In this document: piece by piece, positions 2,961-44,985 of the stretch
Position numbering within the stretch: position 1 is the first letter of the stretch
How the letters are laid out: every line of letters begins with the position of its first letter
IMG/VR virus record: IMGVR_UViG_3300010354_000046
Location: 1-64,000 of that record
Length of the DNA: 64,000 bases
From: a virus
Reading direction: 5' to 3' (one strand)
Notes under the pieces: model-generated
Seen by the model: only the letters and a program-made list of their open reading frames with translations
What the model was told of the DNA's origin: nothing
Databases searched by the model: none
Made by a program: the position numbers and the translations under genes

Positions 2961-2970
2961 GATATTTATC
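2961..2970 (-). promoter_or_regulatory. T4-like late promoter (GATAAATATC)
   Basis: On the minus strand GATAAATATC lies about 20 bases before the tailspike start. It matches the TAAATA core of T4 late promoters (TATAAATA), recognised in T4 by gp55. Confidence 0.6.
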
Positions 2971-3685
2971 AGTTCTCTCGGTAGTATTGTTCCACCCTAT
3001 TCCACCACTGGGTTTCCCAGTATCCAAAGCGATCTGGCGTAAGGATAAATTCTTGGTATTTTGGTTCTCCCCATGTTAATGGGGTTATTTCTGGGGGTTT
3101 TACACACATTAGCACCACACCTTTACGTATTTTTGTACCATGTATTTCATTGTGTGCTAACGCATAGGCTGTTAATTGTAAGTAGTAATCTTCTATATAT
3201 TCTTCTTTTTTAGGCTTGTTAGTCTGCTTGTAGTCTAGTATGCTTTCTTCATTTAAATGAAGCCCGCAGCCATCAGTAGTTCCCGCATATAATCCGGGAT
3301 AATACAACGGAACCTCTACTCCCCACACTTCATTAACATTTTTTAATCCATGTTCAATGATACATTGTGCCATTTTATGGCTCTGATGGCTGTAAGGGTT
3401 TGTTCCTGGTTGTGCAACAACACCAGTTTTAACATAGTCTTCAAGGAACTTGTGCATACGTGTTCCTCGGCCTGCTGCCTCTGTTACAATTTCTTGTGCT
3501 TTAACTTCGCCCACTCGTTTCTTCCATTCCAGTAGGGCTTTTACCTTTTCATAAGGTTTGGTTTTATCAAGGATAGTTGTAACGCTGGGAACTTTGCTGC
3601 CGTCTGGGGTAGCATATAATCTTTTGCCGTCTACGCTTTCTCGATTAATCGGTGTGTAGTCAAATTTTTCGGTTAATAAAGTCAT
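2969..3685 (-). CDS. PD-(D/E)XK exonuclease (RecB/MGME1-like)
   Basis: Probable DNA exonuclease of the Cas4/RecB nuclease superfamily, as found in many T4-like marine phages; 238 residues. The expected motifs are present: VPSVTTIL near residue 32, the acidic residues Glu124 and Asp138 (GTTDG), the PD-(D/E)XK core LDYKQ (Asp151, Lys153), and the downstream YYLQLTAYALAHNE helix characteristic of RecB-like nucleases. It sits between the tailspike and late virion genes but has its own consensus sigma70 promoter, which fits early expression in recombination or host DNA breakdown. I see no iron-sulfur cysteine cluster. Confidence 0.85.
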   Translation of the reverse strand: MTLLTEKFDYTPINRESVDGKRLYATPDGSKVPSVTTILDKTKPYEKVKALLEWKKRVGEVKAQEIVTEAAGRGTRMHKFLEDYVKTGVVAQPGTNPYSHQSHKMAQCIIEHGLKNVNEVWGVEVPLYYPGLYAGTTDGCGLHLNEESILDYKQTNKPKKEEYIEDYYLQLTAYALAHNEIHGTKIRKGVVLMCVKPPEITPLTWGEPKYQEFILTPDRFGYWETQWWNRVEQYYREN

Positions 3686-3723: not shown

Positions 3724-4050
3724 TTATTTCCCTAATTTAGTAGCACGTTTAGCCATCTTACTAACTTCGCTAGGGCCTGCACTTTGACCCTGTGGAAGTT
3801 CTTGGCTGGTGGTATTCTTCATTACTATGCCGTGACCGTCAAAACGATCTACTAGATCTTTTAGGATTTGGTCACTAGGTTTTTGACTATCCCAAAGTTG
3901 CTTAAATGTTTTGTAACTGATATTTAAGCCGGACGACCTCATCTTGCGCTGAAGTTCTAACCAAGTATGTTGTCCGTTTGAGTTATGTTCTTCGTCTGAA
4001 GACTGTAGAGTCCTTAGTAGTAAAACTAAAGGCTCTACAGATTCATTTAC
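3724..4050 (-). CDS. -1 frame extension of the upstream virion-type protein (or separate 72-aa protein from 3942)
   Basis: This frame is open for 108 codons from the slippery A-run to 3724, but no ATG, GTG or TTG occurs before the ATG at 3940-3942, which has no convincing ribosome-binding site. A -1 slip on A AAA AAG just before the upstream stop would append these 108 residues to the 326-residue protein, giving about 434. The extension (SVEPLVLLLRTLQSSDEEHN, then LELQRKMRSSGLNISYKTF) looks like a folded, protein-coding helical domain rather than random sequence. Alternatives are a 72-residue protein starting at 3942, or a one-base assembly error in the nine-A run. Function unknown. Confidence 0.6.
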   Translation of the reverse strand, partial: VNESVEPLVLLLRTLQSSDEEHNSNGQHTWLELQRKMRSSGLNISYKTFKQLWDSQKPSDQILKDLVDRFDGHGIVMKNTTSQELPQGQSAGPSEVSKMAKRATKLGK

Positions 4051-4056
4051 TTTTTT
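4003..4056 (-). promoter_or_regulatory. Candidate programmed -1 ribosomal frameshift signal
   Basis: On the minus strand the heptamer A AAA AAG (4056-4050) in a nine-A run is followed by the stop TAA, a 9-base spacer, and a hairpin. The outer stem is a perfect 8-bp CTGTAGAG/CTCTACAG (4040-4033 with 4010-4003); an inner CCTTTAG/CTAAGG stem adds about 6 pairs. Slippery site, spacer length and stem-loop together match classical -1 frameshift elements such as dnaX. Confidence 0.6.
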
Positions 4057-5027
4057 TTTGAATTAAGTAGCATTGAAAGTTTACGACTGTAATCGATACT
4101 CTCACGCTTTTCTCTGCCTACTTCTGCGGCTGCTGGTGGAAGTTCTCCTTCACCACCAACTGGCATTTCTGGTTCTCCTGCTGGAGCGCCCATGTCAACA
4201 CCGCCGATGCCTGCTGAAGCACCCATTGTCGGTGCTTCACCGCCTGATACAACTGATAGAGCGCCTGATAAGCCTTGGCGGCTTGATTCTAAACTTGCAT
4301 ATAATGATTCTAGTGCAGGCTTAACAGCTTCTTGATATGCTTGAGCTACGTCGCTGCCTGATGTTTCTCTTATAGAGTCTAATAATTCTAATAGCTGTTC
4401 AGCCTTCATTGCGGCTACATCTTCTAGCCAGCCTGTGACACGGTCGACCATGTCTTTAGTTGCCATGATAATCTCAGCTTTTTGTTCTTCGCCTTCTAAT
4501 AAAATCCAGCTGGCTACTGATTCATTTAAGTCGTAACGTAATTTTAATTCAGCCTTTAATTCTGCATTGTCCGACTCACCCAATTTAATACGACTAAGCG
4601 CACTTCTAATCCAAGCGTCTGGAACAGAGTGCTGTTTAGCACGAGCTACCATAAATGGTGCTGTAGGGTGGCGACTTTCTGTTTTAGATTCTTTTTTCTT
4701 CATATCTTTTTTATCTTCATGTTTTTCTTCTTCACACTCGCATGGCTTGCAGTCGCACGTTGGACACTTTCCTTCTTCGCGTTCCATAATTTCTTGATTG
4801 ATACAATCAAGGAATAAACGAGTTTTTTGGTATTCAGGGCTCTCTAGAACAGAATCAAAACTTTCTGAAAGTTCTAATTGGCTTAATTTTGTACGTAACT
4901 TGTTACGTGCATCTTCAAGCTGTACATCTGAAAACTGCTCTAAATTAATTTTATAACCAAACTTGTTTGCAAGGCTTTCGTTGAGCTGTTTGCTAGTCAC
5001 TGGTTTTGAAAATTCTCTAATTTGCAT
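4047..5027 (-). CDS. Putative virion or prohead-associated protein, unknown
   Basis: 326 residues of unrecognised function. The N-terminus MQIREFSKPV resembles the short leaders on other late genes here. A Cys-rich patch (CPTCDCKPCECEEE, around residues 92-105) could bind a metal and is followed by a charged KKDMKKKES stretch. The middle is helical (residues 150-250), then comes a Gly/Ala/Pro-rich low-complexity segment and a C-terminus ending in three lysines at the slippery A-run. It follows a TATAAATA late promoter, which suggests a structural or scaffolding role, but this is inference from context only. Confidence 0.75.
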   Translation of the reverse strand: MQIREFSKPVTSKQLNESLANKFGYKINLEQFSDVQLEDARNKLRTKLSQLELSESFDSVLESPEYQKTRLFLDCINQEIMEREEGKCPTCDCKPCECEEEKHEDKKDMKKKESKTESRHPTAPFMVARAKQHSVPDAWIRSALSRIKLGESDNAELKAELKLRYDLNESVASWILLEGEEQKAEIIMATKDMVDRVTGWLEDVAAMKAEQLLELLDSIRETSGSDVAQAYQEAVKPALESLYASLESSRQGLSGALSVVSGGEAPTMGASAGIGGVDMGAPAGEPEMPVGGEGELPPAAAEVGREKRESIDYSRKLSMLLNSKKK

Positions 5028-5054: not shown

Positions 5055-5062
5055 TATTTATA
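5055..5062 (-). promoter_or_regulatory. T4-like late promoter (TATAAATA)
   Basis: Exact TATAAATA on the minus strand, about 28 bases before the 5027 start; the closest match to the T4 late consensus in the left half of the window. It overlaps the end of the upstream gene. Confidence 0.7.
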
Positions 5063-5513
5063 CAAATGTCCACTTAAACATTCTACTAATTTCATCCTTG
5101 TAGGCTCCAGCTCTGGCTGTGCTTTCCTCAAATTTGTTTAACAGTATCAAGTACCTTTCAAAATCCTTGGTTATTTTTAAGTTATTTTGATATATTGTAC
5201 GGTCCATATGGTTAGCCCAATATTGATTGTCTAACATTTTGATTTGATTATATTTGTTCAAGTTTATTTTATAGTAGGCCTTGGCTGCTAACAATGCACA
5301 ACTTTTTAAAAAGAACTCGCCGACGACATCCTTGTTGGATGCATTATACAATGTCCATTTTCCAGCTTTATTCTTTTTAATCAAATACCCTTTGTAATAA
5401 AGTGTATCTTTGGAAATAACACGGATTTCTAGATGTTCATCGAGTGTATGACTCAATTCTAACGCTAGATCGTCTAAGCTGGGTTTTTTAAATTTCTTGG
5501 GCTTCATTGGCAA
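5058..5513 (-). CDS. Hypothetical phage protein
   Basis: 151 residues, not recognised. The N-terminus is Lys/Pro-rich (MPMKPKKFKKPSLDDL). The middle LYYKGYLIKKNKAGKWTLYN resembles a small beta sheet, and the C-terminal half is helical with possible coiled-coil character (DFERYLILLNKFEESTARAG). It overlaps the upstream 69-residue gene by 26 bases, so the two are probably translationally coupled in the late operon running from 7437 to 3724. Confidence 0.7.
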   Translation of the reverse strand: MPMKPKKFKKPSLDDLALELSHTLDEHLEIRVISKDTLYYKGYLIKKNKAGKWTLYNASNKDVVGEFFLKSCALLAAKAYYKINLNKYNQIKMLDNQYWANHMDRTIYQNNLKITKDFERYLILLNKFEESTARAGAYKDEISRMFKWTFV

Positions 5514-5697
5514 CTACCTTAGGATTACTATCTCCTATCTTAGTTACCAAACTTTTACGAATGAGAGCCTGAATCCTGAACTGCTCTTGCTCGTTAAGAT
5601 TGGCTAACAGTACCGGCGTCTTAAGTTTTTCAAGAAGTGCTTTTTCCTCGTTGGTCGTCCATATTTCAAAAGCACTGATTAACTCGTTAATTTTCAT
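5488..5697 (-). CDS. Small late-operon protein with MKINELI leader
   Basis: 69 residues, mainly helical, unrecognised. It begins MKINELISAFE, one of the recurrent leaders of the type MKIxELI seen on late genes in this window. Its start overlaps the stop of the upstream gene (ATGA-type junction) and its end overlaps the next gene, so it is embedded in a coupled operon. A role as an internal head or chaperone-like protein is speculation. Confidence 0.65.
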   Translation of the reverse strand: MKINELISAFEIWTTNEEKALLEKLKTPVLLANLNEQEQFRIQALIRKSLVTKIGDSNPKVVANEAQEI

Positions 5698-11161: not shown

Positions 11162-11189
11162 ACGGGCCCTACGGGGCTCGTTCGTTTTT
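11162..11189 (+). terminator. Rho-independent terminator of the plus-strand island
   Basis: ACGGGCCC-TACG-GGGCTCGT stem (one G-U pair) followed by TCGTTTTT. It separates the island from the convergent minus-strand metallopeptidase gene. Confidence 0.8.
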
Positions 11190-11589
11190 ATGCTATTGAT
11201 TCTTTCTCGAATAGCTCAGGGTGTAGTTTACCCCATTTACGCATAATAACTGCGGCTTCTGCGTTAGCTTCGTTTTCGATAGGACTGCCGTCCTTGCCGC
11301 TGTCTGACTCAATACGTCCATCCAAGTCTTGTTTGAAATGAACTAGCTCATGTGCTAGTGTACGGCACACATCCATGATGTGGCGATTCTTTACAGTAAT
11401 ACTAATGTGTTCGCCACCGTAGCCGCCAAAGCTCTTATGCTCAACACTACGTTTAGTGTCAAACATAAAGTCAAATTTAGGAAGGCTGTTTAAATCTAAA
11501 TGCTTGGCAGCAAATTCAATAAACTCTAGCAGGATACCAAACGTATCCTTTTTGCTCATTCCTTCTAATAATATCTCAGTAATTTTCAT
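11188..11589 (-). CDS. Zinc metallopeptidase with capsid-targeting-like leader
   Basis: 133 residues using the ATG at 11587-11589. HELVHFKQ (about residues 80-87) is a HExxH zinc site with the catalytic Glu, and the downstream ENEANAEA offers the third ligand, as in gluzincin or SprT-type peptidases. The N-terminus MKITEILLE followed by Gly matches the form of T4 internal-protein leaders cut after (L/I)xE. The prediction is a head-packaged, co-injected protease; the packaging part is inference. Upstream is a structural protein gene 13 bases away. Confidence 0.8.
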   Translation of the reverse strand: MKITEILLEGMSKKDTFGILLEFIEFAAKHLDLNSLPKFDFMFDTKRSVEHKSFGGYGGEHISITVKNRHIMDVCRTLAHELVHFKQDLDGRIESDSGKDGSPIENEANAEAAVIMRKWGKLHPELFEKESIA

Positions 11590-11602
11590 AATAATACTTA
11601 TC

Positions 11603-12934
11603 TTAATATATCTCTCGCCACTGCCAACCAACTCCTACGTTGGTACTTTGTGAGCCTATGTTAGTTGCTACTACTACATAAATCTCACTATCGGTGCTAT
11701 CATAGTTCTGCACGATATAATTCTTTTTAGCTTCACTAGGCAAGTTACTTGCTGGGGCACCTCCTGCTTTTTGACTGCCCTGTGTGCTAGCACCAACAAA
11801 TCCGTTGTCCATTTCATCGCCGCCTGTGAATGCTGTGCAGGTAGCGTTATATTGTACACCACTGTCATCATCAACGTCAACCCAAGTTGATCCTGTTAGT
11901 GCGGCCTGATTGGGCAGTTTGATCAAGCGCCATTTAATACTGTCACCGTCGCTGAATACCTTTAGGTTTCCAGAACGAACTATCATACGGTTAGCATAGG
12001 TCCTAAACGCTGTCTTTAATCTTATGGCCATTATGGTCAATGTTGCACCAGAGGCTATGGTTCTTAGGCTAGGGCTGATCACTGACCAGTCTTGTCCTGC
12101 TTCTACATAACCGCCTTCTGATACTACAGTAGAGCAGATTTGATCAAAGTATGCTCCTGTGGTAGTGCCTGTGTTTACAATCTCACAGCGTACAGGCAAG
12201 TTTGGTGTGCTCATATAAACTGTGGTCAAATTGTTTGAGTGATAGAACATATGGCAGGGAATAAAAGCACCGTCGTGTACAAATCCCACTGTAACAGCAC
12301 CTACACCTAGCCATTGAAACTCTATAAAGCTCAACTGTGTTTTGGTAATGTCTAGGTTAAACAGACTACCGCCTTGTCCATTACAAGTGTCAATGTTCCA
12401 GTTGGCCTGTGTTACACGATTTTCTACAGGTGCGCCTGATGTGTATGTTCTTATGACCCAACTCAGTGTTCCGTCGCCTGCTTGTTCAAAGTAGATACCA
12501 TTGTTGTCATCAAAGTAACCTGTACGTTTAGTTACGTTAGCAGTAGCCGCATAGTAGCAGAAACTTGAAAGTATCTGCTGGCTCTTGCCTGGCATGTAGT
12601 GATGATAGAACTTAGTCTGGTGGACAACACGACTGCTAGAGTTGTTGCTAGTTGTCAGTCTAGCACAGGCTTTGTTTGCCTGAAACGCCACGGTGCCACC
12701 ATTTAATGTATAGTCGATAAAGTTAGGATCTAATCCGTATAAGTGTTTGTAGTCGCCTAGGGTAAAAGGACTGCTCATACGTATACGACCAAACGCATCC
12801 GACTGTCCTACTTTGAGTGTAGTACGAAGAACAGGTTGCCCTAGAGCATTGTACTCCATGGCATGATGTAGATCGCTTAGGTTAGGTTCCCAAGGATGTT
12901 GATAGTTAGTGCTGTTTGGTAATAGGACTGGCAT
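11603..12934 (-). CDS. Large conserved virion protein (capsid or baseplate structural)
   Basis: 443 residues. The pattern HPWEPNLSDLHHAMEYNALG, then FGRIRMSSPFTL, QTKFYHHYMPGKSQQI and ICSTVVSEGGY, is one I recognise from structural proteins of large unclassified phages that are usually annotated only as virion proteins. It is beta-rich, with no signal or membrane segment. It belongs to a four-gene minus-strand late operon starting at 13532, and its short spacing to the 78-residue gene upstream (3 bases) suggests coupling. Confidence 0.75.
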   Translation of the reverse strand: MPVLLPNSTNYQHPWEPNLSDLHHAMEYNALGQPVLRTTLKVGQSDAFGRIRMSSPFTLGDYKHLYGLDPNFIDYTLNGGTVAFQANKACARLTTSNNSSSRVVHQTKFYHHYMPGKSQQILSSFCYYAATANVTKRTGYFDDNNGIYFEQAGDGTLSWVIRTYTSGAPVENRVTQANWNIDTCNGQGGSLFNLDITKTQLSFIEFQWLGVGAVTVGFVHDGAFIPCHMFYHSNNLTTVYMSTPNLPVRCEIVNTGTTTGAYFDQICSTVVSEGGYVEAGQDWSVISPSLRTIASGATLTIMAIRLKTAFRTYANRMIVRSGNLKVFSDGDSIKWRLIKLPNQAALTGSTWVDVDDDSGVQYNATCTAFTGGDEMDNGFVGASTQGSQKAGGAPASNLPSEAKKNYIVQNYDSTDSEIYVVVATNIGSQSTNVGVGWQWREIY

Positions 12935-13574: not shown

Positions 13575-14774
13575 ATGATTGACAAACAACCCTTCCAAGA
13601 TTTAATAAACGAACTCAAATCCAACGGAAAATATCGTGTGTTTAACGATATTGTACGCGAAAGCGGCAAATTTCCACAGGCTATATGGTATGGCCCGTAT
13701 GCAATTAAGAACATCGTTAATTGGTGCTCTAACGATTACTTAGGAATGGGTCAGCACAAAGTTGTCATAGACGCAATGCACACGGCTCTGGACCATACAG
13801 GAACAGGATCGGGTGGAACTAGAAATATCGGTGGTACGAGCCATTACCATGTAGCCTTGGAACACGAACTAGCTACACTACATAAAAAAGAAAAAGCACT
13901 ATTATTCAGTAGTGCTTATGTAGCTAATGAGTGGACACTTATTGCACTTAGCAAAATCATACCTAATATACATTTTGTAAGTGATAGCAAAAATCATAAC
14001 AGTTTGATAGTAGGTATGAATCATAGTCGTGCTCCAAAGAGTGTGTTCAAACACAACGATATGACCATGTTAGAAGAAATGTTGCAGGCAGTTAAGTCTG
14101 CTGGAGACATACCTTGTATTGTATTTGAAAGTGTTTACTCAATGGACGGAGATGTTGGGCACATTAAAGACATTTGCGACTTAGCTGACAAATATAATGC
14201 CATAACATATATTGACGAAGTACATGCTGTTGGTTTATATGGCCTCCGGGGCGGTGGCAAAGTAGAAGAACTTGGGCTAGAAAATAGAATTGATATAATC
14301 AATGGTACGCTTGGGAAAGCATACGGAACTCAGGGCGGGTATATTGCAAGCGATAGCATTGTAGTCGATGCTATTAGAAGTATTGCAGCCGGATTTATCT
14401 TTACTACCAGCATGAGTCCTGTAACTTGTGCAGGAGCAATGGCTGCTGTCAAGTATCTTAAAGAGCACAACGAACTAAGAGAGTTGCATCAAGACAGAGC
14501 TAAGAAATTAAAATCCGAACTTACCCGTGCAGGTCTACCAGTAATGGATTGCAGTACTACACACATTGTTCCTGTTCTCGTAGGGGAAGCAAAACGTTGT
14601 AAACGAATGAGTGACGAATTGCTTAATGAGTTTGGCATCTATGTGCAGCCTATTAATTATCCAACAGTTGATGTTGGTACTGAAAGATTACGCTTTGCCC
14701 CAACTCCGTTTCATGACGACGGGATGATTGAAGACTTAGTTAACGCACTAAAATTTGTTTTTAGTAAAGACTGA
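13575..14774 (+). CDS. hemA: 5-aminolevulinate synthase (C4/Shemin pathway)
   Basis: PLP-dependent condensation of glycine and succinyl-CoA to 5-aminolevulinate, the first step of heme synthesis in Alphaproteobacteria and mitochondria. The 399 residues are full length for bacterial ALAS. Diagnostic blocks: [34 protein letters not shown] (active-site His142), [19 protein letters not shown] (Asp214, His217), and the Schiff-base lysine in NGTLGKAYG (Lys248), then [11 protein letters not shown]. The VYSMDGD and GFIFTTS blocks favour ALAS over the related AONS (BioF) and KBL enzymes. It lies alone on the plus strand among late minus-strand genes, an apparent auxiliary metabolic gene. No other heme gene is visible in this window. 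Confidence 0.92.
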
Positions 14775-14988
14775 TTAACTGTGTTACACCAAAAACTAAT
14801 GCTGCTCGCATTTGTTGATTAGTAGCTTCGCTATCTAGTTTATCAGTAGCAATTAAGTCTGCCAAAAGTTCTTTTGCTTCGCTTGGGCTTAATTGTCCTG
14901 CTCCCACTGCTTCGTGAATTTGTAGTGCATAACGGGCACGTTCAGCTGCCCATGGTTCACCTGCATTTGTAATTTCAAATAAGTTCAT
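14761..14988 (-). CDS. Small helical protein
   Basis: 75 residues ([20 protein letters not shown]), helical, Ala/Leu-rich, unrecognised. Its end overlaps the 3-prime end of the convergent ALA synthase gene by 14 bases. [11 protein letters not shown] is a weak version of the leader on neighbouring late genes. The single base between it and the upstream lipoprotein gene suggests an operon. Confidence 0.6.
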
Positions 14989-15372
14989 TTAGAATCTCCC
15001 TTGGACAGAACCTGCTAGTATGTCAGCTTGTTGTTTGAGCAGTTTAAGTTTCAAATCACAATAAAGAGGACTAACTGGTCCTTTCTTTAGACGTTCTTGA
15101 TACTCTTGTATTGTTGAAATAATAGTTGCATTTAGTTTACTAATATCTCTTGTAGGCTTCGTCTTTGAATAGATATCAAACCATTCAATACTTTTAGCTA
15201 ATTCATTTAACTGTGCAACTTGATCAGCTTTACAATCAAAATGTCTAGTCTGCTGTTGTATATCAGTAATTACTTTGGCTTGGTTAACATCCCAACGGCT
15301 GGGCATCCATTCCATAACAGTACTGCAACCTGTTAGCATGACTAACGATAAAACTACTAGAATTTTTTTCAT
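14989..15372 (-). CDS. Lipoprotein (possible outer spanin)
   Basis: 127 residues. MKKILVVLSLVMLTGCSTVM is a lipoprotein signal peptide with the lipobox LTGC (Cys16). The mature part is helical with two further cysteines and no second membrane segment. Size, lipid anchor and location near cell-wall enzymes suggest an outer-membrane spanin or other envelope protein; there is no embedded inner-spanin frame that I can see. Overlaps the upstream deaminase gene by four bases. Confidence 0.7.
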   Translation of the reverse strand: MKKILVVLSLVMLTGCSTVMEWMPSRWDVNQAKVITDIQQQTRHFDCKADQVAQLNELAKSIEWFDIYSKTKPTRDISKLNATIISTIQEYQERLKKGPVSPLYCDLKLKLLKQQADILAGSVQGRF

Positions 15373-16025
15373 TTTTTCTTCCCGCTTTTCATGTTAGCCA
15401 TCCAATGTGCTAGTTGTCCTCTACGACCGCCTTGCTTGGCTATCTTACGCAGAGAACTTATGCTGCCCTTAGTTGGTACATTATATCTTTTACTGTCACC
15501 TTTGTCCTGTGGATTACGTCCATCGGCAAAGTTTTCATTTAAGAATGTGTCGGCAAATTTGCCACACATTTCTCTTATGGAACTGTTAGCAGTTTCCATA
15601 ATGTTATATTCTCTTTGTTCTTCGTGTTGTGTAGGATCCATAAAGCCTGCATAGACTTTTTTAATTCCGCATTGATTGATTAAATCTGTGCAACTTTCTC
15701 CATATCGTTCGTCCATGTGTTCACTACAAGGACTGCATGTTGTAATGCAAATACTGCCTTCTGGAATGTTTCCATACTTTTTAGTATAGTTGTCTATGGC
15801 AACACGTTCTGCATGTCTACGTGTATTGTTAGGACCTGGTAAGTTTATTCCTGGAACAAAGTTGTTGTCGGGATCTAATATACCGGCAGCTACCATACCA
15901 AATTTTTCTTTATCAGTCTTTTGTCCGTTAACTATTAAATTACACAACTTATGCAAATAAGTGTCTAACTTTTCGTAACTGTGTATTTCGTCCTCCGACG
16001 ATTCTAATAGTTCATTGACTTTCAT
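15369..16025 (-). CDS. RibD/CDA-superfamily deaminase with head-leader and basic tail
   Basis: 218 residues from the ATG at 16023-16025. RRHAERVAI (HAE zinc and proton-shuttle motif) and TTCSPCSEHM followed by GESC give a cytidine-deaminase-superfamily zinc site whose second cysteine pair is widely spaced, as in RibD. The following GIKKVYAGFMDPT matches the RibD segment GVxRVxxxxxDP. The N-terminus MKVNELLE followed by Ser resembles a capsid-targeting leader. The C-terminal 50 residues form a basic module ending LRKIAKQGGRRGQLAHWMAN, which I recall on other phage virion proteins. Substrate unknown. Confidence 0.75.
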   Translation of the reverse strand: MKVNELLESSEDEIHSYEKLDTYLHKLCNLIVNGQKTDKEKFGMVAAGILDPDNNFVPGINLPGPNNTRRHAERVAIDNYTKKYGNIPEGSICITTCSPCSEHMDERYGESCTDLINQCGIKKVYAGFMDPTQHEEQREYNIMETANSSIREMCGKFADTFLNENFADGRNPQDKGDSKRYNVPTKGSISSLRKIAKQGGRRGQLAHWMANMKSGKKK

Positions 16026-16161
16026 GATCTTCGTAATAAGGTAGTCCGGACACACCGCAGCCGTATCTAGCTAGCCCTTCGATAAAATCGTTACACAGGG
16101 CTATAAGGATTCCTAGGACGATCCCATTCTCCTTCTTGTTCTGGATAAACTGGATATTCAT
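16012..16161 (-). CDS. Small hydrophobic protein (tentative)
   Basis: 49 codons found by direct translation (MNIQFIQNKKENGIVLGILI, then FIEGLARYGCGVSG). It overlaps the deaminase start by 14 bases and would fill the gap 16026-16176. The ribosome-binding site is weak and a competing 28-codon frame covers part of the same bases, so only one of the two is likely real. Confidence 0.35.
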   Translation of the reverse strand: MNIQFIQNKKENGIVLGILIALCNDFIEGLARYGCGVSGLPYYEDHESQ

Positions 16162-19077: not shown

Positions 19078-19755
19078 TTATGCTACGCTGTTGATTGTAT
19101 TTTTTACATCAGCAACTGTGAAGTATGATTTACCTTTACTCTTGCCGAATAACGGATTTTGAGCCCAGATGGCATGTTTGCTTAAACCAGTACGACCAAG
19201 TTCGCCGCCGCCTCGCTGACCTAAAATAGTTTTATCTGGAGCGTTAGCATAGGCAGGTAAGAAGGTCAGCATGTATATTTCTCCGCGCTTCATTCCTGGT
19301 TTTACTCCAGCTTTTTTATAAAATAGATGTACTAAATCTAATTGCTCTACAGCACTCATTTGCAGTATTGCAGGCAATGTTGTGCCAAGCCCACGTGCAG
19401 TTTTATCCGTAAAACCAATCAGGCCGCCAGCGATACGATTTCTCGACTTTGGATTATGATTACTTTCTGTTTTAATAATTGCACGTAGGTCATTAGGATC
19501 AATTCCCAACGAGTTTGCCACTTTAACTAACTTTTTGTTATAGTCTGTTTCACCACCAATATTTGAAACTTTGGGTTTTGTTGGCGCAGGTTTATTACTA
19601 GTAGCAGGTTTATTACTAGTAGCAGGTTTATTACTAGTAGCAGGCGGAGTAGGACTACCTTTATCCCATGTTGTGCCTTTTAGCAGCGAAGGAGGTAAGC
19701 CCTTAACAATGTCGTTTAAGGTTTTTTCAGGGTCTATAAATTCTTTTAATCTCAT
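19078..19755 (-). CDS. Lytic transglycosylase (SLT-type), linker-tethered
   Basis: 225 residues. The C-terminal domain carries the SLT motifs: RAIIKTESNHNPKSRN with the catalytic Glu, then GGLIGFTDKTARGLG, which cleaves peptidoglycan glycan strands. The N-terminus MRLKEFIDPEKT and the box SLLKGTTWDK resemble those of the neighbouring M23 gene, followed by a flexible linker of three TSNKPA repeats. The likely role is local cell-wall opening during infection (virion-borne) or at lysis; the leader favours a virion component. No signal peptide. Confidence 0.85.
   Translation of the reverse strand: MRLKEFIDPEKTLNDIVKGLPPSLLKGTTWDKGSPTPPATSNKPATSNKPATSNKPAPTKPKVSNIGGETDYNKKLVKVANSLGIDPNDLRAIIKTESNHNPKSRNRIAGGLIGFTDKTARGLGTTLPAILQMSAVEQLDLVHLFYKKAGVKPGMKRGEIYMLTFLPAYANAPDKTILGQRGGGELGRTGLSKHAIWAQNPLFGKSKGKSYFTVADVKNTINSVA
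19587..19640 (-). repeat. Three tandem 18-bp repeats encoding the TSNKPA linker
   Basis: CAGGTTTATTACTAGTAG (plus-strand orientation) occurs three times without a mismatch. It is in frame and codes the linker repeats of the transglycosylase, so the copy number can vary without a frameshift. Confidence 0.95.
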
Positions 19756-19756
19756 A

Positions 19757-20269
19757 TTATGCTACCGGGTTAACTGGTTTACCTGCAACGTGTTTTTCCC
19801 AGTGTAGGTGCGGGCCTGTACTGTATCCTGAACTACCAGTAAATGCTATGATATCACCTTGCTTTACAGTCTGTCCCGGCTTTACATTAATCCTAGATAA
19901 ATGATAAAATTTGTGTACTACACCATTGGCATTGAGTATTACATAAACTCCTGCACTTCCTCCGTTAGGGCCTGCTGATGATACAATAGCATTCTCAGGT
20001 GCCTTAACAGGAGTGCCAACAGGGGTTGCAAAATCAACACCTAAATGATTATGTGGGCGACCTACATCAGTTCTCCATCCAAAGGGTGAACTAATGCGAG
20101 CATTAACAGGCATAATCATTTTACCAGATGGTGTAAATTTGCCTGGGCGCGACGCTGGTTTATTGTTACTGCGTGTTGGAGCATTAGGATTTTTTAAATT
20201 CTTATCCCAGGATGTGCCTTTCAGCAGTCGATCTAGCATGTCAGAACTAACAAATTCTAGTAATCTCAT
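19757..20269 (-). CDS. M23 family peptidoglycan endopeptidase
   Basis: 170 residues from the ATG at 20267-20269. LysM-free M23/LytM domain: ISSPFGWRTDVGRPHNHLGVD holds the first zinc His and Asp, and GPHLHWE the HxH ligand pair. It cuts cross-links in peptidoglycan. N-terminal MRLLEFVSSDM and the box RLLKGTSWDK parallel the neighbouring transglycosylase, suggesting a shared targeting element; the linker is Asn/Pro/Ser-rich. The start overlaps the stop of the 85-residue gene (TGATG). Genes for the two wall enzymes are adjacent and probably co-expressed. Confidence 0.9.
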   Translation of the reverse strand: MRLLEFVSSDMLDRLLKGTSWDKNLKNPNAPTRSNNKPASRPGKFTPSGKMIMPVNARISSPFGWRTDVGRPHNHLGVDFATPVGTPVKAPENAIVSSAGPNGGSAGVYVILNANGVVHKFYHLSRINVKPGQTVKQGDIIAFTGSSGYSTGPHLHWEKHVAGKPVNPVA

Positions 20270-20526
20270 CACTGACCCTTGCGTGTTCCGTAATCAGGAA
20301 GTGGGCCACCGTACTTCCTACCTTTGATACGTTTGCCGCCTACTGTAACTCTTACTTTTCTGTTTCCAGAAGTAATTAGATGGCTCTTTTCGCCATCGCG
20401 GGCACGTAGCCCTTGACTCTTACAAGATGCCAGCTGACTAGCACCTAACTCTTTATCAGGTTTACTACTAGTACATAAAGCTCTGCTGGCTTTGCCTTCT
20501 TCTGATATGATTTCATGGATCTTCAT
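20269..20526 (-). CDS. Small conserved protein with MKIHEIISE leader
   Basis: 85 residues. The leader MKIHEIISE followed by Glu-Gly looks like a capsid-targeting sequence cut after IxE. The remainder is basic with two cysteines (LCTSSKPDKELGASQLASCK) and a beta-like KVRVTVGGKRIKGRKYGG end, reminiscent of small phage proteins I have seen as hypothetical. Positive charge and leader suit a DNA-associated internal head protein. A GATAAATA element lies in the end of the upstream epimerase gene. Confidence 0.65.
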   Translation of the reverse strand: MKIHEIISEEGKASRALCTSSKPDKELGASQLASCKSQGLRARDGEKSHLITSGNRKVRVTVGGKRIKGRKYGGPLPDYGTRKGQ

Positions 20527-44826: not shown

Positions 44827-44905
44827 GGGCCGTTAGCTCATGCTTGGTTAGAGCAGTGGACTCATAATCCATTGGTGCTAGGTTCGACTCCTAGACGGCC
44901 CACCA
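44827..44905 (+). tRNA. tRNA with CAT anticodon (Ile2-like, or elongator Met)
   Basis: Full cloverleaf: acceptor GGGCCGT/ACGGCCC, D arm GCTC/GAGC, anticodon loop CTCATAA, T arm CTAGG-TTCGACT-CCTAG, and an encoded CCA. G1-C72 pairing excludes initiator tRNA. The D arm and GACTCATAATC plus TTGGT variable region look most like E. coli tRNA-Ile2, whose C34 is changed to lysidine to read AUA; elongator Met is the alternative. Confidence 0.92.
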
Positions 44906-44908
44906 AAT

Positions 44909-44985
44909 CTGACTGTAGCTCAACTGGATAGAGCAACAGCCTTCTAAGCTGTAGGTCGGGGGTTCGAGTCCCTCCAGTCAGGCCA
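44909..44985 (+). tRNA. tRNA-Arg (TCT anticodon)
   Basis: Cloverleaf: acceptor CTGACTG/CAGTCAG, D arm GCTC/GAGC, anticodon stem ACAGC/GCTGT with loop CTTCTAA (TCT, reads AGA/AGG), T loop TTCGAGT, discriminator G and encoded CCA. Three bases after the first tRNA, so both are one transcript. Confidence 0.95.

Follow-up and report, generated by a model that had tools for sequence, protein, structure and literature searches.

INTRODUCTION

Extension of phage coat proteins by -1 frameshifting has been described for gene 10 of T3 and T7 and for Lactobacillus and Listeria phages (PMC5009743). In T7/T3 gene 10A/10B, as in other phage coat proteins (PMC5009743), a structural gene of a double-stranded DNA phage yields a major form and, in smaller amount, a form extended at its C-terminus; in gene 10A/10B, the -1 frameshift occurs near the stop codon and the extension makes up a small domain by itself. 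The locus described here, in which gene A is followed by the -1 frame B, is predicted from its sequence to be alike in these respects. However, A/B belongs to another gene family in a T4-like, Rak2-related phage, it has a run of nine A's (A9) together with a 3' hairpin, and its extension is a winged-helix-like domain that is a gene of its own in relatives.

The heptamer A_AAA_AAG followed by a 3' stem-loop is shared with the -1 sites of E. coli dnaX and of the IS3 family, and few -1 motifs are more efficient in E. coli than this heptamer when stimulators are present (PMC4066793). In contrast to those sites, the A/B heptamer is followed at once by a stop codon, the run is A9 and not A6, and no Shine-Dalgarno-like element could be seen. 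Furthermore, the frameshift in A/B would extend the product, whereas that in dnaX truncates it. Thermus thermophilus dnaX uses exactly nine A's for transcriptional slippage (PMC1088944, PMC5009743) and gives two products. The A/B site likewise has exactly nine A's and two predicted products, but most A/B members also have a covarying 3' hairpin.

A late-gene -1 frameshift with a short and a long form is also known from lambda G/GT and T4-like gp26/51, to which A/B is alike in this respect while being a different gene. Vladimirov et al. reportedly found frameshifting in several T4-like groups and not in T4 itself. The Rak2-like pairs GAP32_293/294 and CBB_298/299 share with the present locus A (a strong match), B (a weak profile match plus synteny) and an exonuclease after B. 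There, however, A and B are two genes, B has its own ribosome-binding site and start, and no slippery site is present.

RESULTS

A slippery heptamer closes gene A

We analyzed a window of 64,000 nucleotides, positions 1 to 64,000 of the 141,603-bp IMG/VR record IMGVR_UViG_3300010354_000046. The features at the end of gene A are as follows.

4047..5027, minus strand: gene A, 326 aa, a helical virion structural protein (PHROG 14154, "head and packaging")
4051..4059, minus strand: A9 run, containing the tandem heptamers A_AAA_AAA (4059-4053) and A_AAA_AAG (4056-4050)
4050..4056, minus strand: slippery heptamer A_AAA_AAG, in the frame of gene A
4047..4049, minus strand: stop codon TAA of gene A, adjoining the heptamer
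4041..4049, minus strand: 9-nt spacer between heptamer and hairpin, including the stop codon

Direct reading of the sequence showed that gene A ends in ..AAT TCA AAA AAA AAG TAA, with the G at 4050. This confirmed the sequence-only reading, in which A AAA AAG closes a nine-A run just before the stop codon of a 326-codon gene. As in -1 frameshift cassettes, a slippery heptamer of the X_XXY_YYZ form lies in frame close to the gene end, and the predicted A-B fusion would carry the junction sequence ..LLNSKKKVNESVEPL.. in its product. Inspection by eye of the sequence 5' of the slip site in the window found no Shine-Dalgarno-like stimulator.

No other A/T run in the entire record reaches nine. The same motif recurs in relatives, and its presence at the end of gene A is not due to chance. 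A conserved homopolymer of at least nine residues that is avoided elsewhere in the genome is the pattern of the Thermus dnaX type.

The frame break is kept among relatives

IMG/VR was scanned twice, once with B and once with A, which produced 131 loci and 78 distinct junctions, the window excluded. Alignment with relatives had been proposed as a check on the frame break, and the break proved to be kept: B has the same -1 offset from A in 65 of the 78 distinct related junctions, which come from more than 60 metagenomes. The identity of protein A among the related junctions ranges from 30 to 92%.

All listed -1 junctions carry at least nine A's followed by TAA. The run has nine A's when the heptamer ends in G or C, and ten or eleven when it ends in A; a C precedes the run and, with few exceptions, belongs to a TCA codon. 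Five further loci, with no B match in tblastn or one that was too short, showed the same site on direct reading. When all runs of nine or more A's on both strands of 1.29 Mb of related loci (overlaps included) were collected, 115 of the 119 had the form TCA9[GCA]TAA. The last base of the heptamer is G, C or A in the relatives, with at least eight changes on the tree, a variation of the kind that X_XXY_YYZ allows. On a quick tree of A plus B, in which the direction of change was not inferred, one change (support 88) suffices to account for the -1 arrangement, which fits a single origin.

A/T homopolymers are error-prone with some sequencing technologies. A sequencing or assembly error in the run, with one continuous A-B frame as the true gene, was the rival explanation named in the sequence-only reading, and this general weakness of homopolymers speaks for it, although none of our results does. 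The break falls at the identical base in each of the 65 distinct junctions, and in related phages A and B are separate genes, with A ending in a stop codon. Since the -1 junctions all have at least nine A's and then TAA, the error is refuted as an explanation, and we assign it virtually no probability.

In one locus (L025:4999-5174), the end of gene A and the start of B are missing together with the slip site, through either a deletion or a chimeric contig.

B is a conserved frame that lacks a start codon of its own

3724..4050, minus strand: B, the 108-codon -1 extension and its stop codon; B homologues occur at 65 -1 junctions and at 9 loci where the gene is separate
3724..3942, minus strand: ATG open reading frame called mechanically within B, beginning at the first start codon (codon 37), which is not conserved and was rejected as a real start

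The -1 frame reads GTA AAT GAA TCT .. to a stop codon at 3726-3724. It is open for 108 codons and its first ATG, GTG or TTG is the ATG at 3942, as had been claimed from the sequence alone. In 60 members, B aligns over its full length, from the slip site through the conserved C-terminal KMAKRATK, and some of its positions are invariant or nearly so. Compared with L002, its nearest relative, the window shows 27, 20 and 39 substitutions at codon positions 1, 2 and 3 of B, and 50, 27 and 92 at those of A; the B figures are raw and are raised by an indel close to the end.

It may be argued that B is a separate gene which is translated by termination-reinitiation from an internal start, either the ATG at 3942 or a non-canonical codon near the stop codon of A. 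Separate B genes do exist: in a sister clade (L026, L029, L032, L034, L039, L040 and L043-L045), B has its own ATG directly behind A, mostly after GGAG, and B is also separate in isolates. In the -1 clade, however, no start is conserved. In a survey of 67 loci, the open B frame lacked a start codon on its upstream side in every one (67 of 67), and the first downstream start was scattered from codon 1 to codon 107. In addition, the conserved B domain begins 5' of the ATG at 3942, and an internal start would not explain why A9 and the hairpin are conserved. Internal initiation of B was rejected by the start-codon survey, and we consider it very unlikely. As judged from these sequence patterns, B is a protein, and not a INDEPENDENTLY started one; a -1 frame that is conserved and not independently started is what a -1 frameshift cassette contains.

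The structural model of B predicts a helix, a winged-helix-like core and a disordered tail that carries KMAKRATK, with a mean pLDDT of 76 and values near 90 in the core. Comparison of this fold with the PDB gave weak winged-helix-like matches (the MCM8 WH domain and Fur), none with E<0.1. In another locus (L046:4095-6047), the B homologue lies inside a larger open frame that runs beyond KMAKRATK; this is a third way in which the B domain is arranged.

A hairpin follows the slip site in most loci

4003..4040, minus strand: putative 3' stimulatory hairpin, indicated by fold z, structure peak, covariation and excess over synonymous recoding

The hairpin has an outer stem of 8 bp (4040-4033 with 4010-4003), a 1x1 mismatch (4032/4011), an inner stem of 7 bp (4031-4025 with 4018-4012) and a loop of 6 nt (4024-4019). 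The 9-base spacing and the 8-bp outer stem noted earlier were borne out, but the folded stem has 15 bp and not the 14 bp first counted. At 9 nt downstream of the heptamer, the hairpin of the window falls within the distance of ~5-10 nt typical of stimulatory structures. Its folding energy is -23.2 kcal/mol, compared with a mean of -9.4 for shuffled sequences (z = -5.9), and none of 200 shuffles was as low.

When 50-nt windows were slid along 67 loci, a peak of RNA structure appeared right after the slip site (mean z of -3.1 at offset 0 and -2.7 at +15), while most other positions had z between 0 and -1, about -0.4. With 200 synonymous recodings per locus, the hairpin was more stable than the recoded sequences in 49 of 64 loci, with a mean z of -3.23. 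In the 58 hairpins that could be aligned, 69% of the cells pair, compared with 28 to 48% in slid registers. The covariation score of the same 58 hairpins was 0.188, against 0.119 for shuffles, and was reached by none of 500 shuffles; kinship among the sequences can inflate this shuffle test, but neither the comparison with slid registers nor that with recodings is open to this weakness.

Not every relative has the hairpin in this position. In 15 of the 64 loci (about a quarter), no hairpin beyond coding chance was found, yet the A run is kept. In six loci (L069, L083, L084, L108, L109 and L117), the hairpin is shifted by ~12 nt, again with the A run kept. Because about a quarter of the relatives are without the hairpin and six have a displaced one, the hairpin is a usual but not an obligatory part of the recoding site. 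It is possible that the relatives without the hairpin use another stimulator, such as a pseudoknot, or none.

The six loci with the shifted hairpin have four extra codons, with the pattern VIQxI.ES, which place the hairpin ~20 nt downstream. Loci with A9 and no convincing hairpin include L004, L014, L054, L074, L077, L082, L101, L024 and L037.

A and B have separate-gene homologues in Rak2-like phages

2969..3685, minus strand: PD-(D/E)XK exonuclease, a syntenic marker that immediately follows B both here and in the Rak2-like isolates
5058..5513, minus strand: upstream syntenic gene, 151 aa, found upstream in 57 of the 65 -1 loci
5488..5697, minus strand: small upstream syntenic gene, 69 aa, with an MKINEL start, in the position of GAP32_291 and found upstream in 61 of the 65 -1 loci

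Gene A matches PHROG 14154, a family of virion structural proteins, with an E value of 4.7e-8, and 50 of 53 relatives match the same family. The AlphaFold model of A is helical (mean pLDDT of 73.5), and its BFVD matches point to proteins of RaK2 and Atu_ph07. Pfam and PDB sequence searches with A and B gave nothing useful, and tblastn of A or B directly against the isolate phages gave no matches; Rak2-like phages were reached only with the helical core of a distant member.

The isolate pairs are GAP32_293/294, CBB_298/299, XbC2_294/295, Munch 324/325 and Vibrio 2.275 025/026. In each isolate A and B are two genes, in the same order and ahead of the same exonuclease, which also follows B in all 65 of the -1 loci. 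The homology of A to GAP32_293/CBB_298 is strong (hhalign probability of 96.7%, E value of 3e-10). For B, the match to the B proteins of the isolates is weak (hhalign probability of 30%, E value of 5.5e-4), while position, size, layout and the C-terminal motif agree. This profile match, together with synteny and layout, gives a weak indication that B and the B proteins of the isolates are homologous.

The "virion structural" names of these proteins in GenBank are annotations, save for the CBB rows, which come from mass spectrometry. In the CBB virion proteome (PMC5259590), CBB_298 was detected with 10 unique peptides (35.8% coverage) and CBB_299 with 2 peptides (20.0% coverage). The presence of these peptides in virions indicates that both are virion proteins in CBB.

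The T4-like setting of the locus was also confirmed. The record encodes a portal, a gp21-type protease, a gp23-type capsid protein, a terminase, UvsX and a gp32-like SSB, and its capsid protein is ~70% identical to those of jumbo phages such as PA5oct and Vibrio 2.275. The window also contains two adjacent tRNA genes, Met-CAT and Arg-TCT, at 44827-44985.

A second -1 site lies in the tail chaperone gene

139250..140077 of the record, plus strand, outside the window: PHROG 150 gene of the gp26/51 type; 139250..140298 (L136:15250-16298) with its extension

Most of the known -1 sites in late operons of phages belong to tail assembly chaperones with short and long forms (PMC5009743, PMC10885494), and for those of T4-like phages PMC10885494 cites Vladimirov et al. 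2022, so A and B might be the chaperone pair (G/GT-like) of this phage. However, a gp26/51-type gene of PHROG 150 is present elsewhere in the record and has a -1 site of its own. Its heptamer T_TTT_TTC (L136:16059-16065) is in frame, 9 bases before the stop codon, and is found in 60 of 60 distinct relatives. A 77-codon -1 extension follows in nearly all of these 60 relatives (in one it leaves the contig end), and the structure signal at the site is strong, with a z of -3.7. The PHROG 150 site is of the tail-chaperone kind of frameshift, which is a known kind.

Since this second site occupies the PHROG 150 gene, A/B is not the chaperone; the separate locus ruled that assignment out. In addition, the short form A showed no homology to the chaperone family and matched the head or virion structural PHROG 14154. 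CBB virions contain homologues of A and B, whereas mature lambda virions contain neither G nor GT (PMC5009743). We regard a chaperone role of A/B as extremely improbable. The sequence-only reading had called a structural-gene frameshift in a T4-like operon unusual. Frameshifting itself, however, is not new to T4-like phages, and the gp26/51-type gene provides a second example in the same record.

DISCUSSION

Ribosomal and polymerase slippage at the A/B site

The comparative evidence supports the earlier proposal that the slippery heptamer, spacer and stem-loop form a programmed -1 frameshift site in a late structural gene. That frameshifting here is programmed, at the level of either the ribosome or the polymerase, is almost certain by the comparison of sequences. 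We consider it probable that the -1 frameshifting is mainly ribosomal and that it gives the 326-aa virion protein and a predicted minor A-B fusion of 434 aa.

The in-frame heptamer, the covarying 3' hairpin, the adjoining stop codon and the variable last base of the heptamer all speak for the ribosome. On the other hand, programmed transcriptional slippage could produce the same fusion. The polymerase would add one A on the nine-T template, alone or together with ribosomal slippage, so that mRNA with A10 would encode A-B in one frame and mRNA with A9 would encode A. In agreement with this, bacterial polymerases slip once a run reaches nine residues, a length that many genomes avoid (PMC1088944, PMC5009743), and a run of A9 or longer is found in every listed -1 relative, including the loci that lack the hairpin. 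The first three bases of the run are conserved even though the heptamer A_AAA_AAG has no need of them. TCA precedes the run in nearly all loci despite making up 16% of the serine codons in the record, which fits selection on the run length itself. As the conserved A9 exceeds the A6G that the heptamer requires, polymerase slippage may contribute to the frameshift.

However, the hairpin that covaries in most loci lies 3' of the run, in RNA that would still be unsynthesized at the moment of polymerase slippage. Throughout, the heptamer is immediately followed by the stop codon, and the tandem heptamers A_AAA_AAA and A_AAA_AAG also account for the longer run. Overall, transcriptional slippage appears rather unlikely as the main explanation of the site, but it is a serious rival to ribosomal slippage or may act beside it.

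A model for the production of the A-B fusion

With slippage occurring mainly on the ribosome, A and B would form one programmed recoding unit. Most ribosomes would stop at TAA and release the 326-aa virion protein. A fraction would slip by -1 on TC_AAA_AAA_AAG, with the tRNA-Lys in both the P and A sites re-pairing on AAA AAA. In most of these phages, the hairpin ~9 bases downstream would aid this slip, and the adjoining stop codon may do so too. The slipped ribosomes would continue with GTA.. and read 108 codons in all, giving the 434-aa A-B fusion.

Because B lacks a start of its own, its only way into the virion would be as a minor extension at the C-terminus of A, and slippage would set the ratio of A to A-B. 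The separate B gene in the sister clade and in the Rak2-like isolates suggests that the frameshift would replace independent expression of B. We infer a mainly ribosomal slip, and likewise the slip efficiency, the ratio of A to A-B and the entry of A-B into the head.

Possible targeting peptides at the N-termini of A and B

Separate B proteins start with MR[FY]SQITE, MRFSDLTE, MRFSEF or MRLFEV, and A starts with MQIREF (MQIRE/F). By analogy, these N-termini resemble the T4 head-targeting peptides that are cut after [I/L]xE, and a gp21-type protease is encoded in the record. Such starts were found in 8 open reading frames against 2.8 expected, a modest excess in which the observed count is lenient, shifted starts having been allowed.

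Starts of the form M[KRN][ILV]xE[FIL] occur on the minus strand of the window at 11188-11631, 14761-14988, 15369-16055, 19078-19755, 19757-20272 and 20269-20526, and one also at L136:16295-17245. The late genes with these starts, which resemble T4 capsid-targeting peptides, include a metallo-endopeptidase-like and a baseplate-hub/transglycosylase-like gene.

If the N-termini are targeting peptides, the fusion replaces that of B itself. We tentatively suggest, as a possibility that we hold to be on the doubtful side, a Gag-Pol-like packaging of B. The frameshift would supplant both the start and the targeting peptide of B, so that B would enter the prohead only as cargo fused to A, at a fixed minor ratio. 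The change from a separate B (MRFSQITE.. or MRLFEV..) to an extension would have occurred once, in the clade ancestor.

Significance of the A/B recoding site

In the open papers that we searched, we found no description of the A/B pair, its site, the clade or the switch between two genes and one unit. A/B adds a well-supported and widely conserved recoding site to those of T4-like/jumbo phages, in a structural gene and not in a tail chaperone. Separate genes in the Rak2-like isolates and the frameshift fusion in the uncultured clade offer a natural comparison. The site unites nine A's, the signature of polymerase slippage, with the heptamer and hairpin of ribosome slippage, and having both signatures at one site makes it a good test for telling the two apart. 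In no fewer than 65 distinct viral junctions, gene calling that relies on ATG, GTG or TTG overlooks B or places its start too far downstream. For the uncultured T4-like giant phages that carry the site, the conservation of its sequence suggests that selection probably keeps A9 and the hairpin so that part of A would carry an extra domain of 108 residues.
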